From Chloroflexota bacterium (GTDB lineage Bacteria > Chloroflexota > Anaerolineae > Anaerolineales > Anaerolineaceae): a stretch of 6,240 nt of DNA. The notes below the pieces were generated by a model. That model searched no databases. It saw nothing but the letters and a program-made list of their open reading frames with translations, and had not been told where the DNA came from. How positions within the stretch are numbered: the first letter of the stretch is position 1; each line of letters opens with the position of its first letter. The stretch covers positions 1 to 6,240 of the forward strand of contig JAJUJY010000217.1 in the NCBI GenBank assembly GCA_029265085.1, in the 5' to 3' direction. Of this stretch, positions 1 through 6,240 are shown piece after piece. Made by a program: the position numbers and the translations under genes.

Positions 1-200
1 CCAGTTGCCCCTTCATCCAGAACCGCAAAAGGCACAAACCCCAATTCACTAACCTGAGCGGATTGATCTTGCCCAAACAAATCTTGAATCGATGCCTCAA
101 GCGTCGGGAAAGACGAAACAAGGCGGGCTACCCCAATCACTAACAATAATATTCCAACACCAACAATCCAATGAGATTTCATCGTTTTAATAATCGTCAT
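1..200 (-). CDS. N-terminal part of an unrecognised membrane-anchored or secreted protein
   Basis: An open frame on the minus strand starts with ATG at 200 and runs off the left edge after 66 codons, so only the N-terminus is visible. It begins MTIIKTMKSHW, followed by a hydrophobic stretch at about residues 11-28 (WIVGVGILLLVIGVARLV) after a few basic residues. This looks like an uncleaved signal anchor or a signal peptide, with the rest (SSFPTLEASIQDLFGQ and onward) outside the membrane. There is no lipobox cysteine. GGGAAAG lies about 7 bases before the ATG and is an acceptable ribosome binding site; a second ATG at 182 (MKSHW) is a possible alternative start. The gene lies 128 bp downstream of the response regulator on the same strand and could be its co-transcribed partner or target, but this is only position. 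I do not recognise the family. Confidence 0.6.
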   Translation of the reverse strand, partial: MTIIKTMKSHWIVGVGILLLVIGVARLVSSFPTLEASIQDLFGQDQSAQVSELGFVPFAVLDEGAT

Positions 201-328: not shown

Positions 329-1075
329 TTAGTCGCCGGTATCCAATTTATAGCCAAGCCGGTCAATATTTACGATCAGCTTATCTGCTTCAACTGACAC
401 ATCCATCAATTTCTTGCGCAATAAATATACCAGATATTTAATTCTCTGTTTGGATTGTGCAAAATCTTTTCCCCAAACATTTTGAGAAATCACTTGATAA
501 TGCACAATTTCAGGGGCATGCTTGGCCAAAGTGGTTAAAACGCTAAACTCCTTGGCAGTTAAAGGAATCTTCTCGTTTTTATAAATTACTTCGCGTGCAT
601 GCATGTCAATTGCCAACCCTAATTGAGGGAAAGCATAACGATTGGTTTGTCGAGTTCCTTTCGCCCGCCGGAGAACTGCATTCACCCTGGCGACAACTTC
701 AGCCTTAAAAAACGGCTTGGTTAAATAATCATCCACCCCTTTTTGGAAACAATTAACCACATTTTCTTTACTGGTTAAGGCAGATACAATGATGATTGGC
801 ATCTGGCTAACCTGGCGCAACCGATCAATGGTCTCCCACCCATCCATCTCTGGCATCATCAAATCCAACAAAACCAGATCAGGATACCCGAGGTTGCATT
901 TATTTAATGCATCTAAACCATTCGCGGCGCTCAGAACATCAAAACCAGCCAGGCGTAGAATTTGTTTTAGCAATATGGCTGTATCGTGATCATCTTCCAC
1001 GACCAGAATTCTGGATCGTTCACTGGAGTAATATTCATCCAGATCCGCCCCTACCATAGCACTCTGATCCAACAT
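329..1075 (-). CDS. Orphan OmpR/PhoB-type response regulator
   Basis: A 248-residue DNA-binding response regulator. The receiver domain spans about residues 23-140. The acidic pocket is E27/D28/D29 (ILVVEDD), the phosphoacceptor is D71 (LLDLMMPEMDGW), S98 is the switch Ser/Thr (IIIVSAL), Y117 the aromatic switch and K120 the conserved lysine (YLTKPF), so all catalytic residues are present. A winged-helix OmpR-type domain follows at about 150-245: PLTAKEFSVL, the recognition-helix region QRIKYLVYLLRKKL and the wing hairpin NIDRLGYKL. I chose the ATG at 1075 because AAAGGAGG lies 5 bases upstream. An in-frame start at 1105 exists but would place that ribosome binding site inside the gene. About 22 acidic residues precede the receiver, longer than usual. 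No sensor kinase is adjacent, so the signal is unknown. Transcription must come from promoters at 1253-1318 through the terminator at 1111-1140. Confidence 0.95.
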   Translation of the reverse strand: MLDQSAMVGADLDEYYSSERSRILVVEDDHDTAILLKQILRLAGFDVLSAANGLDALNKCNLGYPDLVLLDLMMPEMDGWETIDRLRQVSQMPIIIVSALTSKENVVNCFQKGVDDYLTKPFFKAEVVARVNAVLRRAKGTRQTNRYAFPQLGLAIDMHAREVIYKNEKIPLTAKEFSVLTTLAKHAPEIVHYQVISQNVWGKDFAQSKQRIKYLVYLLRKKLMDVSVEADKLIVNIDRLGYKLDTGD

Positions 1076-1080
1076 AATTT

Positions 1081-1088
1081 CCTCCTTT
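1081..1088 (-). promoter_or_regulatory. Strong ribosome binding site that fixes the regulator start
   Basis: AAAGGAGG on the minus strand stands 5 bases before the ATG at 1075. It is a near-perfect Shine-Dalgarno match and decides between this start and the longer in-frame one at 1105. Confidence 0.85.
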
Positions 1089-1110: not shown

Positions 1111-1140
1111 AAAAACAAAAACCGACCCAAAGGCCGGTTT
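1111..1140 (-). terminator. Intrinsic terminator inside the leader of the regulator gene
   Basis: In the minus-strand RNA, AAACCGGCC (1140-1132) pairs with GGUCGGUUU (1127-1119) as nine pairs including one G-U. The loop is UUUG and the U-rich tail is UUGUUUUU (1118-1111). It lies downstream of both promoters and only 36 bp before the regulator's start codon, with no room for another promoter in between. It must therefore be read through for the regulator to be made, or it ends a separate small RNA. It could also stop read-through from the hydrolase gene upstream. Confidence 0.8.
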
Positions 1141-1246
1141 CGCTATTTGGCTCCCTGATTATCCGCTCAATAAAAGAGCTAAGCGACCATATTGGATAAT
1201 CAGATCAACGCCGCCTTAATATGCTTTTTAAAATGTTAACGAAAGC
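1111..1246 (-). ncRNA. Candidate structured leader RNA (riboswitch/attenuator-like) or small RNA
   Basis: The transcript expected from the inner promoter, from about 1246 to the terminator, is roughly 136 nt; from the outer promoter about 173 nt. It contains a perfect 10-bp helix, CUGAUUAUCC (1203-1194) with GGAUAAUCAG (1164-1155). Inside is a 4-bp hairpin, GCUC (1179-1176) with GAGC (1168-1165), stacked directly on the 3' strand. This leaves a 14-nt one-sided bulge (1193-1180). UCGCU in the bulge (1186-1182) is complementary to AGCGA (1144-1140) in the linker before the terminator, so a pseudoknot is possible. GAGCCAAA (1153-1146) can pair with UUUGGGUC (1131-1124), with one G-G mismatch, which would disrupt the terminator. 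A further helix UGCUUU/AAAGCA (1247-1242 with 1227-1222) sits at the 5' end. I recognise no known riboswitch class. No leader peptide is evident: the only AUG, at 1190, is followed by two codons and a stop. Confidence 0.55.
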
Positions 1247-1252
1247 ACAAAT

Positions 1253-1281
1253 ATTACACAAACGAAAAAAATATTTGTCAA
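1253..1281 (-). promoter_or_regulatory. Inner sigma-70-type promoter (P2) of the regulator leader
   Basis: On the minus strand TTGACA (1281-1276) and TGTAAT (1258-1253) are separated by exactly 17 bases: a perfect -35 and a 5/6 match at -10. Start of transcription is expected near 1246. It follows P1 in tandem with a 37-bp offset. Confidence 0.7.
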
Positions 1282-1289
1282 TTTCAATA

Positions 1290-1318
1290 ATTATAGTAAT
1301 CCAAAAATTGTTTGTCAA
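1290..1318 (-). promoter_or_regulatory. Outer sigma-70-type promoter (P1), exact consensus
   Basis: On the minus strand TTGACA (1318-1313) and TATAAT (1295-1290) are separated by 17 bases, an exact consensus promoter. Start of transcription is expected near 1283. Being intrinsically strong, it would make the downstream terminator the natural control point. A direct repeat abuts its -35 element. Confidence 0.85.
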
Positions 1319-1319
1319 G

Positions 1320-1339
1320 ATCAAACCAATATCAAACCA
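1320..1339. repeat. Two direct repeats ATCAAACCA, 11 bp apart, next to the P1 -35
   Basis: ATCAAACCA occurs at 1320-1328 and again, identical, at 1331-1339. The 11-bp period is one helical turn, the arrangement bound by head-to-tail dimers of OmpR/PhoB-family regulators. It ends 1 bp from the -35 of P1. Binding by the response regulator encoded downstream (autoregulation) is a reasonable inference but not shown. Confidence 0.5.
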
Positions 1340-2201: not shown

Positions 2202-2275
2202 GGGCGGATAGCTCAGTTGGTTAGAGCACATCCCTTACAAGGATGGGGTCGCAGGTTCGAGTCCTGTTCCGCCCA
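2202..2275 (+). tRNA. tRNA-Val (anticodon UAC)
   Basis: The 74 bases fold into a standard cloverleaf. The acceptor GGGCGGA pairs with TCCGCCC, the D stem is GCTC/GAGC, and the anticodon stem is CATCC/GGATG around the loop CTTACAA. The variable loop is 5 bases, the T stem is GCAGG/CCTGT with loop TTCGAGT, and the discriminator is A2275. Anticodon UAC reads valine GUA and probably other GUN codons. The 3' CCA is not encoded (next bases CTA) and must be added by the CCA-adding enzyme. No terminator follows: the stop codon of the convergent lipoprotein gene begins 8 bp away. No second copy of the tRNA 3' end was seen in the window, so there is no sign of an integrated element. Confidence 0.97.
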
Positions 2276-2283
2276 CTATTTAT

Positions 2284-3450
2284 TTAAAACTGGCCTTGCA
2301 TCGAATGAGCATACCCGGTCAATTCGACATACCCGAACCCTGTCACTGTTTTTGCCCCAACCGTCCCAGAAATTTCGACAGCACCTTCCCAATAGGTGAA
2401 TGATACTCGCATTTCCTGGTTGACTATCAATGGGTTGATCTGCAGTTGAATTTGGTGCTCAGGAATGCTGATTTGCCACCTTGCAGGATACACTGCCCCA
2501 GATTCTGGACTGGTCCAGGTAGAATTAACATTAATCTCAAAGTCAGCAGCTTTTACCGGGATGGTTTCACCAGATGGCAAAATGATCGTGCCGCTCGAAT
2601 ATTCATCTCGCGTGCCATCTATTTTTCGCAAATTAAATACCATGATCTCCATTTCATTATTCAATTGGATTGAAAACCAATCCCACCCAACCTGGTCTAT
2701 CCCCAATGCGCTGGTAGAAAACTCATGATCCATCCAACTATAACCAGAAATGGAATATTCGCGGTTCTGGATTTTAATTGTCCCTTTGGTTTCTAATCTT
2801 GTCTGACTAATGTAATACGATGCATTTCCAGGTTCAGGACCTTTTTGACTATACCCATTGATGCCTTGCAGGATTGGCCCTTTAATATCCTCTAATTCCA
2901 AATGGATCGATATCCCCTCATGTGACGCTTTTAATGCATATCGATGCTCGCTGATTTGTCTGACTGACCAATCTTTAAGCCACACCTCAAAATACGGTAA
3001 GCCTTGAGCACCAGCTAATCCACCTGCACCTCTTGAAATTTTTTCGGTTCCATAAAATCGATTTTCTCTTACGTCCGTCAGTCCAAAATGAGCCAGGTAT
3101 ATCTGCTCCACGGCCAGGCTCGATTCTCGTTCCGACTGTTCCATTTCTGGCCGTAAAGCCCTACGGAAAAAGGTTAATTGATAGCCAAATCGATTACCTG
3201 ACTCATCGGCCAAATTTCCAGTGTAATACCACCATTCTGTTTGAAAATTATCATGTGGTCCATGATCTTCTGGAAAATTAAATGGGATTGGGCTGTCTGC
3301 CCTTTGAAATTGTGCATTGGCGGTCAAAGGATACCCGTTTAATAATGGAATCGCAGTCGAATCAATTGCAGATTGAGTTTGTAAACCGCAACCTGTTAAG
3401 GCAGTAAGAATAACCACTGGAATAGTCAATAATTTGGCTAATTTACTCAT
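2284..3450 (-). CDS. Lipoprotein of the CrtC/AttH lipocalin-like family
   Basis: A 388-residue envelope lipoprotein related to AttH and carotenoid 1,2-hydratase (CrtC). The signal peptide MSKLAKLLTIPVVILTALTG ends in the lipobox L-T-G-C with Cys21, so the mature protein should be lipid-anchored on the outer face of the membrane. Family landmarks: FPEDHGPHDNFQTEWWYYTG (59-78), GYSWMDHEFS (236-245), GWDWFSIQL (255-263), YPARWQISIP (321-330), YWEGAVEISG (353-362) and GFGYVELTGY (371-380), giving two lipocalin-like barrels. ATG 3450 overlaps the end of the permease gene by 8 bp (ATGAGTAA arrangement), with GAGG 9 bases upstream, indicating translational coupling; a TTG at 3465 is a less likely start. 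Encoded with an ABC exporter, it is more likely a carrier or acceptor of a lipophilic substrate than a carotenoid hydratase, since no carotenoid genes are near. The substrate is unknown. Confidence 0.88.
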   Translation of the reverse strand: MSKLAKLLTIPVVILTALTGCGLQTQSAIDSTAIPLLNGYPLTANAQFQRADSPIPFNFPEDHGPHDNFQTEWWYYTGNLADESGNRFGYQLTFFRRALRPEMEQSERESSLAVEQIYLAHFGLTDVRENRFYGTEKISRGAGGLAGAQGLPYFEVWLKDWSVRQISEHRYALKASHEGISIHLELEDIKGPILQGINGYSQKGPEPGNASYYISQTRLETKGTIKIQNREYSISGYSWMDHEFSTSALGIDQVGWDWFSIQLNNEMEIMVFNLRKIDGTRDEYSSGTIILPSGETIPVKAADFEINVNSTWTSPESGAVYPARWQISIPEHQIQLQINPLIVNQEMRVSFTYWEGAVEISGTVGAKTVTGFGYVELTGYAHSMQGQF

Positions 3451-6004
3451 ATCGTATTGCCTCAATAGCAGTCATGCGGCTAATCCGATAAGCAGGGATA
3501 ACTCCTGCCATTAATGCAGCTATCAATGCAGTCATTACCGCAAACAATACACCCAGCGGCTGGATATTCATTTGCAAAGTCCAACCAAAAGAACGCATGT
3601 TAATGATAAATATCAAAATCAAAGATAAAACAATCCCTGTAGGTATGGCGAAAACACCAGCTGCCAGCCCCATCAAACCGGTTTCTAACATAATCATTTT
3701 CCAAAGTTGCCGGCCAGTCAGCCCTAAAGCCATAAATATCCCTAATTCACGCTGTTTTTCCATTAATAGCATCAGAAGGGTTGATAAAATTCCGATAAAA
3801 GCAACAACTGTCGCGAGTATTCTTAATGCAAAAGTAATTGCAAATGTTCGGTCAAAAACATCCATCACTTCTTCCCGAAGTGCCTGGTTGGCCCGAATTA
3901 ATAATGACTGATTTGTTCGAATTTGATCTTGCAACTTTGTTGCAAATTCATCCGCATTAACTCCATCTCGCAATCGAATTCCGATTGCAGTAACCCCTGG
4001 ATCACCCCAGGATTTCTGATATCTATCCAGCGAAATCATTGCACTGCCTTCACTAGACGCATAATCATAAAAGATACCAATTACTTGGAACTGGGTCAAA
4101 CCGCCTGGTGTGTAAATTCCAAACAGATCACCAACTTCAAGGTGGAAACGATTTGTCAACGGCTCAGATATTAAAATTCCGCCCTGATTCAATTGTTCAT
4201 AAATCAATGCTTGTTGCACACGTACACTTTTAAAATATCGTTCTTTCCCAATATCCGGATTATTCGTTGCTGATAAATTTAGACCACCCAAAGGACTATC
4301 TGCTTTGATTGTGCGCAACAAATCAACTCTCTGAATATTTGGCCAATTCCGCAATTGGGAAACAACATCTTGATCAATGAGAGTTGTTGATTGGGTAGAT
4401 GTAAAACTAGGTGCGGAAATATAAATATCACTCTGAAGTGTTTGTTCCAGCCAGATCGTTACGGTATAACGGAAACTATCAATCATTAAAGTAACCCCAA
4501 TTGATACCGCTACAGCAATCATTAAGGCTGAAACTGCAATTCCAGTCCTACTTAATGAACTCAATAAAGATCGCGGCGCAATTTTCCCAATCCAGCCAAA
4601 TAACTTCTGAGTAATTGGCCGTATAACGGTCATCATCCATTGCAACCCATTAATGGACAACATCGCAAATCCAATAACAACAAAAAAAGTCCCTCCAAAA
4701 CCAAATATCAAATATTCATTTGGTACCCAAAAAGCGATTCCCCCAAGGATAAAACAGATCACACCACCCAGCGTAATCCACCCAGTAAATCGTTGGGCTT
4801 TTTCTTCTATTCCAGATCGAGTTATTGCCACACGCGGCGGAACGCCAGCTGCTTCAATCGCAGGAATAACTGCGGTAACAATTGTTGCAACCAATCCAAT
4901 CAAGCCCCCTTTTATCAGGCTTGATAATGGTAAACCAATATCTCGAACTGTTGTCGTGAAATAAAGGTCATTGATTGTCTGACTTACGAGAGAAATGGTA
5001 TTTCTACCCATTCCAATACCTAAACCAACCCCAATAGCTGAACCAATTATTCCAACAATAATCGCTTCTCCAAGAACAATTATAAATATTTCTTTTCTGG
5101 TTACGCCAAGGCAGCGCAGTGTCCCAAACAACGCTCGTCTTTGGATAACAGAAAATGTCATCGTGTTATAAATCAAAAACAATCCAACCACCAATGCAAG
5201 CATTGATAGAGCACTAAGATTCAGCTGGAATGCTGCTGTCATTTGTTGAATTGCATCGGCTTGCGCCTGAGCAGGAACAATTCTTACTTCCTCAGGAAGG
5301 ATTGCTTGAATATCCTTTTCGATATTTTGATTACCCTCAGGAATGATTAAATCGATACGGCTGATTTTTCCAATAAAACCAGTAATCTCTTGAGCAGTTG
5401 CAATATCTGCGAGGATCAGACCACTTAAAGTTCTAGCAGATAAATTATCTCGAGGATAGACGATCCCTGCTAAAAACACTTTTGTGTCGATACCATTTAC
5501 TAGAATAGATATCTCTTGTCCAATGGTTAATTGATACCTTTCTGCCATATCTTTTGATAACAATACGGCTCCAGGCTGAGTGAAAAATGAGACCAGGTTA
5601 GGCCAATCAATTTGTGCCTGCTCGTCCCAATAATCCCGAAAAGGCCGATCCTCCAGAAAATCAAATCCCAATAATTGATATGGCTGGTTCCCCAGGTTTG
5701 GCGAAGAAACATTGATGGAGATGATGGGTGAAACCGCTTCGAGTAAACCCGTTTTCTGCAAATCAACATAAATGGACTCGTCAAAAGCCTCACCAGATGC
5801 AATTATTTGATGGGTAGCTTTTCCAGTTATTGCTTGGGTACTAAGTTCAAATGCTCTTCTTGACCCGGCATTCGCCAGATCAATCGATACCATAACTGCA
5901 ACACCTAAAGCAATCCCAAACACCATGAGCAAAGTTTGCCAGCGATGAATCCATAAATATCGCCAGCTTACTTTCCTTAAAGAGATCAGGGACATGGAAT
6001 TCAT
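3443..6004 (-). CDS. ABC transporter permease with two FtsX domains (AttF-AttG-like)
   Basis: An 853-residue inner-membrane permease of the FtsX/MacB/LolCE superfamily. About ten membrane segments are visible: 25-45, 265-285, 304-332, 363-385, 408-427, 430-452, 486-508, 722-747, 770-800 and 815-837. Two large extracytoplasmic domains lie at about 46-260 and 510-720, each after one membrane segment, so the chain is a duplicated permease. The end, GVIPAYRISRMTAIEAIRYE, is the typical FtsX C-terminal motif, and EKQRELGIFMALGLTGRQL is the usual cytoplasmic coupling loop. The ATG at 6004 lies 3 bp after the ATPase stop with only a weak ribosome binding site, so coupling is likely; ATG 5995 (MSLISL) is an alternative. 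The family uses ATP to move lipoproteins, lipids or peptides out of the membrane or periplasm. With the ATPase before and the lipocalin-like lipoprotein after, an AttEFGH-type export system is the best reading. Confidence 0.93.
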   Translation of the reverse strand: MNSMSLISLRKVSWRYLWIHRWQTLLMVFGIALGVAVMVSIDLANAGSRRAFELSTQAITGKATHQIIASGEAFDESIYVDLQKTGLLEAVSPIISINVSSPNLGNQPYQLLGFDFLEDRPFRDYWDEQAQIDWPNLVSFFTQPGAVLLSKDMAERYQLTIGQEISILVNGIDTKVFLAGIVYPRDNLSARTLSGLILADIATAQEITGFIGKISRIDLIIPEGNQNIEKDIQAILPEEVRIVPAQAQADAIQQMTAAFQLNLSALSMLALVVGLFLIYNTMTFSVIQRRALFGTLRCLGVTRKEIFIIVLGEAIIVGIIGSAIGVGLGIGMGRNTISLVSQTINDLYFTTTVRDIGLPLSSLIKGGLIGLVATIVTAVIPAIEAAGVPPRVAITRSGIEEKAQRFTGWITLGGVICFILGGIAFWVPNEYLIFGFGGTFFVVIGFAMLSINGLQWMMTVIRPITQKLFGWIGKIAPRSLLSSLSRTGIAVSALMIAVAVSIGVTLMIDSFRYTVTIWLEQTLQSDIYISAPSFTSTQSTTLIDQDVVSQLRNWPNIQRVDLLRTIKADSPLGGLNLSATNNPDIGKERYFKSVRVQQALIYEQLNQGGILISEPLTNRFHLEVGDLFGIYTPGGLTQFQVIGIFYDYASSEGSAMISLDRYQKSWGDPGVTAIGIRLRDGVNADEFATKLQDQIRTNQSLLIRANQALREEVMDVFDRTFAITFALRILATVVAFIGILSTLLMLLMEKQRELGIFMALGLTGRQLWKMIMLETGLMGLAAGVFAIPTGIVLSLILIFIINMRSFGWTLQMNIQPLGVLFAVMTALIAALMAGVIPAYRISRMTAIEAIRYE

Positions 6005-6007
6005 TGC

Positions 6008-6240
6008 TTAAGCTTCTGATGGATCAACAAAACGTCCGTTTCGTAAAGTGAAATAACGATCAGCAAAATGAGCTGCCTCTTGACTATGGGTAACCATAAT
6101 GAGTACTTTTCCGGCTTTGCGGGTAAGACGATCAAGCAGGTCAAGGATATTTTTTCCTGTACCCTCGTCCAGATTACCTGTAGGCTCATCTGCCAATACA
6201 ATCATAGGGTCATGAACTAATGCTCTGGCAATTGCCACTC
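6008..6240 (-). CDS. ABC transporter ATPase (LolD/MacB/AttE-like), C-terminal part only
   Basis: The last 77 codons of an ATP-binding subunit; the gene starts beyond the right edge. The visible part begins just after the LSGGQ signature ([11 protein letters not shown]), then Walker B with the catalytic glutamate ([13 protein letters not shown]), the D-loop within the same run, and the H-loop histidine in [20 protein letters not shown] is characteristic of the LolD/MacB/FtsE group that works with FtsX-type permeases. The GTG at 6238 is the internal valine of RVAIARA, not a start. The stop TAA is 3 bp before the permease ATG, placing it first (as seen) in the operon and making it the energy source for that permease. 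Walker A lies outside the window. Confidence 0.93.

Follow-up and report, generated by a model that had tools for sequence, protein, structure and literature searches.

A leader RNA ahead of an OmpR-type regulator gene in Chloroflexota is very probably a divergent c-di-GMP-II riboswitch

Introduction

Class II c-di-GMP riboswitches are reported to be transcriptional ON switches in C. difficile (PMC11477304). One of them, Cdi-2-2, turns up cmrRST, which includes two OmpR-family regulators (PMC8844915, PMC12548384). As described, the cmrRST transcript starts 699 nt before cmrR with an invertible DNA switch between, and the operon includes a kinase and a second regulator. The 3Q3Z aptamer contains a kink-turn (PMC4316175), and a review lists its c-di-GMP contacts as A13, A14, U37, G39, U60, A61 and C68-A74 (PMC7288161). 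A survey with Rfam models reports that riboswitches are enriched in Chloroflexota, lists the GAG and GCG families, and finds tandem c-di-GMP switches enriched in phyla other than Chloroflexota (PMC12452182).

Here, we analysed a 6,240-nt stretch of Chloroflexota DNA, hereafter the window. A leader RNA encoded in it is very probably a divergent, cis-acting c-di-GMP-II riboswitch, a predicted ON switch for an OmpR-type regulator gene and probably also for a sortase gene. The arrangement resembles cmrRST in that a class II riboswitch precedes an OmpR-family regulator, with induction by c-di-GMP predicted here from the terminator overlap. In view of the Cdi-2-2/cmrRST precedent, the circuit logic is not new; the Chloroflexota members of c-di-GMP-II and their link to this regulator are. 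Unlike cmrRST, the window combines a compact leader with a probable sortase gene behind the regulator, and no nearby kinase gene could be recognised. In the open-access literature on riboswitches or c-di-GMP with Chloroflexota or Anaerolineae, the element was undescribed in the titles and abstract openings among the matches listed. For a largely uncultured bacterial group, the locus provides a testable second-messenger circuit in which an RNA-sensed regulator often stands beside a sortase gene, and related switches precede surface and exopolysaccharide genes. The similar wiring in C. difficile, of class II riboswitch, OmpR-family regulators and surface adhesins, suggests that the design is either old or convergent.

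Organisation of the leader

Coordinates are those of the window, and the leader element is read on its minus strand. The features were as follows:

1322..1338, minus strand: direct repeat GGTTTG-N5-GGTTTG, immediately 5' of the first promoter (found by script)
1290..1318, minus strand: first promoter, TTGACA-17-TATAAT, 12 of 12 consensus letters
1253..1281, minus strand: second promoter, TTGACA-17-TGTAAT
1224-1123, minus strand: c-di-GMP-II-like aptamer, whole model 1-84 (RF01786 match)
1214..1217, minus strand: P1 5' strand AAGG, partner 1133-1130 (covariation over 61 elements)
1210..1212, minus strand: P1b 5' strand GGC, partner 1151-1149 (96.7% of cells paired, double changes in two of three pairs)
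1205..1209, minus strand: kink-turn with 3-nt bulge 1209-1207, G1206.A1152 and A1205.G1153
1194..1203, minus strand: 5' strand of P2, a 10-bp helix, partner 1164-1155 (covariation)
1182..1189, minus strand: UGG (1189-1187), then pseudoknot 5' strand UCGCU (1186-1182)
1165..1179, minus strand: accessory 4-bp hairpin within the P2 loop, 1179-1176 with 1168-1165 (folding)
1134..1147, minus strand: A1147 (equivalent of A61), pseudoknot 3' strand AGCGA (1144-1140) and predicted ligand strand AACCGG (1139-1134)
1118..1141, minus strand: intrinsic terminator, its 5' arm being the ligand strand AAACCGGCC
1081..1085, minus strand: ribosome binding site GGAGG (from the sequence)
329..1075, minus strand: OmpR-type response regulator, 248 aa (PF00072, E 9.7e-29; PF00486, E 9.1e-15)
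3..200, minus strand: 5' end of the following gene, a probable sortase gene, truncated by the window end with about 66 codons inside

The original prediction had described much of this architecture: two strong promoters, a 10-bp helix, a 29-nt interior with a one-sided 14-nt bulge and a 4-bp hairpin, complementarity between UCGCU and AGCGA, and a terminator as expression platform. All of these were found. The promoters match TTGACA-17-TRTAAT twice (0.01 expected), the bulge spans 1193-1180, and the complementary segments correspond to the c-di-GMP-II pseudoknot written in other letters. The riboswitch-like architecture thus stands. The leader had also been left unassigned to a known class, and this part falls, since RF01786 matches it end to end; a described family is the outcome that had been named as refuting.

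Of the 61 element upstream regions, just five have this direct repeat or a similar one ahead of the promoter: that of the window and those of its four closest relatives. The regulator may itself bind there. MAFFT placement had suggested the second promoter as the ancestral one, an idea that we abandoned because the direct repeat sits before the first. A repeat or mobile element as the origin of the region was rejected, repeats of at least 12 bases being absent from 1000-1450.

None of 200 dinucleotide shuffles folded as well as the leader (1246-1111; z = -3.07), most of the signal coming from the terminator hairpin (z = -3.87). Sub-stretches free of the terminator were unremarkable: 1215-1140 gave z = -1.63, with 11 of 200 shuffles equally good, and 1201-1150 gave z = -1.48, with 19 of 200. 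Thermodynamics alone is therefore a modest argument for structure in the leader, and what places it beyond chance is conservation and covariation over the 61 elements described below. Prefix folds of the window leader suggest a pairing of UUUCGUU with AGCGAA.

Occurrence before regulator homologues

Searching 147 genomes with the regulator returned 102 places in 61 genomes. The scores split into 81 places with at least 172 bits (39-76% identity) and 21 paralogues with at most 161 bits (33-40%). The closest genes, at 74-76% identity, lie in four Chloroflexi bins, one labelled Anaerolineaceae. Upstream flanks, of up to about 720 nt for fetched loci and 430 nt for L141, were scanned with R1, our own model built from eight well-aligned sequences including the window and its four closest relatives. 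The 81 loci yielded 60 strong matches (43.8-108.6 bits) in addition to the window, the next best scoring 14.7 bits. Six weak matches (at most 14.7 bits) were left out before alignment A5, and the element set used throughout comprises the 60 strong matches and the window. An earlier alignment, A2, of 17 mixed elements was discarded because the 3' arm of P2 was misplaced in several rows.

An element on the same strand preceded 46 of the 81 homologues, 35-372 nt before the coding start, or 42 of 77 when the four model-building loci were removed. The association followed relatedness to the regulator: 8/8 at 70% identity or more, 22/31 at 50-69% and 16/42 at 39-49%. Among the lower-scoring paralogues, one of 21 had a strong match, and 5 of the 60 R1 matches were located elsewhere than upstream of the bait regulator. 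As 35 of the 81 homologues had no element in the scanned flank, the link to the regulator is not universal.

Elements occur in pairs before seven regulators and as a triplet before one (L114:2282-2685 on the minus strand, L140, L144, L145, L147, L148, L150 and L151). These tandem elements are complete, each with its own terminator, and should give a steeper response.

Structural conservation

Over the 61 elements, 93.7% of pair cells were paired, as compared with 76.0% in shuffled and 26-46% in slid controls. The covariation score, which carries no phylogenetic correction, was 0.527, versus 0.188 for shuffled and at most 0.096 for slid controls, and 18 of 22 pairs contained double changes. P2 had double changes at all 10 pairs and 94.4% of its cells paired. 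In P1, the inner two pairs were paired in 98.4% of cells and the outer two were weak (61% and 70.5%). The nested helices are favoured because the alignment was fitted to them; the pseudoknot, which was absent from the model, had 99.7% of its cells paired, with double changes in two of its five pairs (G-C to A-U in L150 and U-A to C-G in L124). The search for conservation and covariation before orthologous regulators that had been proposed for this leader thus found both.

Unpaired and non-canonical positions were similarly constrained. The kink-turn G.A occurred in 59 of 61 elements and the A.G in 60. UGG at 1189-1187 was invariant, as were the equivalents of A1147, A1139, C1137, C1136 and G1135, and those of A1138 and G1134 were kept in 60 of 61.

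Relationship to c-di-GMP-II

At gathering thresholds, Rfam models detected only a tRNA in the whole window. In E-value mode, RF01786 (c-di-GMP-II) covered 1224-1123 end to end with 40.6 bits against a gathering score of 53.5 (E 1.2e-7, or 1.2e-5 when searched together with 31 kb). In the four closest genomes, too, it gave the best match in front of the regulator's orthologue, with scores (31.5-35.9 bits) that likewise fell short of the cut-off. These scores lower any claim of formal membership in RF01786, which is carried instead by structural features. The P1, P1b and P2 helices occur in model order, with outer P1 weak in the window. Between P1 and P2 lies the kink-turn, and a pseudoknot joins the P2 loop to the strand before AACCGG, its location being that of RF01786 and 3Q3Z, as are the UGG and AACCGG pocket letters. 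The differences are the pseudoknot letters (UCGC/GCGA rather than GCAC/GUGC in the consensus), C-G instead of A.A at A13/A74, and the accessory hairpin in the P2 loop, an extra segment when compared with RF01786 (18 unshown positions versus one in the model alignment). Other models matched the leader below their own cut-offs and were set aside as chance: rnk_pseudo (20.9 bits), CRISPR-DR25 (20.2), STnc240 (18.0), sroH (16.2), MicC (16.0) and NrrF (13.8).

RF03169 (c-di-GMP-II-GAG), of the same clan, shares the GGUCGC/GGCGA style of pseudoknot, and all ten related genomes tested had sibling elements that scored above its cut-off. On the regulator's own elements in these ten, it passed in one (G013, 42.6 bits), those of the four closest genomes reaching just 28.4-30.6 bits against a cut-off of 40. 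The name presumably refers to the GAG before ACC in the model consensus, whereas the window and all 61 elements have GAA. The best clan match of the window element is RF01786.

The four closest genomes contained 28 RF01786-like matches (9, 6, 7 and 6), none over cut-off; two of these, L036 and L038, cover model positions 13-60 only and look like chance. The same search of 14 control genomes returned no match. In the family of G002, 68 of 147 genomes had an RF01786 match at E ≤0.001, and in six a match exceeded the cut-off. The cut-off thus leaves most such elements unlabelled, 62 of the 68 matching genomes having none over it, and RF03169 labels some of those left out. Of 400 genomes sampled from the phylum, a few of them from the same family, 35 had an R1 match (E ≤1e-6).

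A second sequence type (L013, L014, L015, L016 and L017) occurs in the same genomes, before subtilase or 5'-nucleotidase genes. It has a GGACGCC loop and a GGCGUAACCGG strand, lacks the accessory hairpin and is nearer RF01786 (45.8-52.5 bits); its pseudoknot is written in yet other letters, with changes that compensate for each other.

Equivalents of the listed ligand contacts

The listed 3Q3Z contacts were mapped by shifting their numbers by one throughout, which brings them into agreement with the RF01786 consensus. The window keeps 8 of the 13: U37, G39, A61, A69, A70, C71, C72 and G73. The five that changed are all at positions that pair or can pair. A14-U60 is a covarying pair, G-C in the window; C68 is A, which pairs with U in the pseudoknot; and A13 and A74 are C and G, which can pair. 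Based on the kept contacts and the covarying or pairable changes, c-di-GMP is likely the ligand. GGDEF domains were found in all four closest genomes (7, 9, 6 and 9 matches, one below cut-off) and also in 8 of 14 control genomes. Two elements, L021:1501-1611 (G003:C30) and L037:1612-1501 (G001:C149), are preceded at a distance of about 0.9 kb by same-strand GGDEF domains.

Proposed switching mechanism and alternatives

In 60 of 61 elements, AAACCGGCC, which holds the AACCGG contacts, doubled as the 5' arm of an intrinsic terminator, an overlap seen in 27 of 1220 shuffled regions. As this conserved arm belongs to the aptamer, the information lies in the 3' arm that matches it and in the U run. 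The closed aptamer and the terminator are mutually exclusive. Ligand-free energies were calculated as -33.9 kcal/mol for the terminator state and -19.2 kcal/mol for the aptamer, and -5.2 kcal/mol for the pseudoknot duplex. Since the ligand strand is the terminator's 5' arm, ligand binding should block termination, which points to an ON switch.

In the proposed mechanism, the leader would fold into P1, the kink-turn and P2 plus the pseudoknot, and the latter would set AACCGG in the ligand pocket. Without ligand, AAACCGGCC would pair with the following GGUCGGUUU to form the terminator, and transcription would stop before the regulator. With c-di-GMP bound, the AAACCGGCC strand would be kept in the aptamer, blocking the terminator and allowing readthrough, so that the OmpR-type regulator would be made, probably together with the sortase 3' of it.

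The changed letters raise the question of whether the c-di-GMP-II fold could bind another cyclic dinucleotide or a related molecule. The letters C and G at A13 and A74 and the changed pseudoknot pair beside the pocket, with A at C68, depart from the listed contacts, and Rfam has named aptamer variants, including RF03169 with its above-cut-off matches to other elements. We nevertheless give this reading a small probability. The equivalents of U37, G39, A61, A69, C71, C72 and G73 are present in 61 of 61 elements and that of A70 in 60. At the A13 position, number 12 with the offset, C (21/61) and A (37/61) both occur before homologous regulators and also within the triple array L114, and the GAG of RF03169 is found in none of the 61. 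A wider form of this idea holds that the elements are a distinct variant class with altered ligand preference, through which a messenger other than c-di-GMP sets a kinase-less regulator, sortase and surface-protein regulon family-wide; we regard it as similarly improbable.

Two further alternatives do without a small molecule or without control in cis. The strong terminator in the leader could belong to an attenuator that senses a protein or translation, its aptamer likeness being inherited; conservation is highest at the pocket letters, a constraint not expected from attenuation alone, and the pseudoknot has double changes, so this is very unlikely. A stand-alone small RNA ending at the terminator and acting in trans would account for the leader having its own promoters and terminator. 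This alternative to the original prediction is the least credible, with a negligible probability, because the location before the regulator gene is conserved in the 46 homologues and the overlap of the terminator arms with the ligand strand is kept. For the c-di-GMP-II riboswitch favoured here, the terminated short transcript may have a second role.

Associated genes

The regulator has a receiver and a winged-helix domain (Pfam). Its start is most likely ATG 1075 rather than that of the longer listed GTG frame; a public protein, P0001, has the same length of 248 aa. The phosphorylation site, judged from the sequence by the motifs we take to mark it, is intact. Scans of neighbouring frames, six in the window and nine at L076 of G002, revealed no recognisable kinase gene. 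The original description of an OmpR-type regulator without a kinase gene nearby is supported, and so is the proposal of an input besides a kinase.

The next gene resembles the start of the sortase of L001 (30% over 57 aa, E 5e-5 in a small database), and fragment 3..200 alone had no Pfam match. With one query and flanks of up to 1.5 kb, 14 of 30 regulator loci were found to have a same-strand sortase gene (PF04203) 3' of the regulator, among them all ten with at least 60% identity; in another locus, it lay upstream. We infer that the regulator and sortase are co-transcribed. The first sortase gene at L076 is faced by another, sortase-like gene (L076:6589-7290, minus strand) with a weak PF04203 score of 24.0 bits (cut-off 26.6).

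Behind other elements in the four closest genomes, eight proteins included a subtilase, three 5'-nucleotidases and PKD and PT repeats, with camelysin-like matches in two, one below cut-off. Nine proteins from the wider family comprised two sugar transferases, one with DUF4215, one with sub-threshold beta-helix matches alone and five without a match. By inspection, a response regulator was the first frame in 6 of 27 wider-family loci. Surface, matrix-like and exopolysaccharide genes behind related elements are the kind of output expected of c-di-GMP; the physiological role of the element is itself putative.

Several neighbouring features were observed. An FMN riboswitch (92.3 bits, over cut-off) is divergent from a tandem element pair (L018:1198-1063, minus strand; L020:1924-2059, plus strand). 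The tRNA gene of the window (2202-2275, plus strand), which is over its gathering score, has a counterpart next to the regulator locus of each of the four closest relatives. At 2284-6238 on the minus strand, the window encodes an FtsX/MacB-type permease and a CrtC/lipocalin protein, and one frame without a Pfam match reads like the end of an ABC ATPase. Genes for FtsX, lipocalin and FAA-hydrolase proteins also precede the element at L076.
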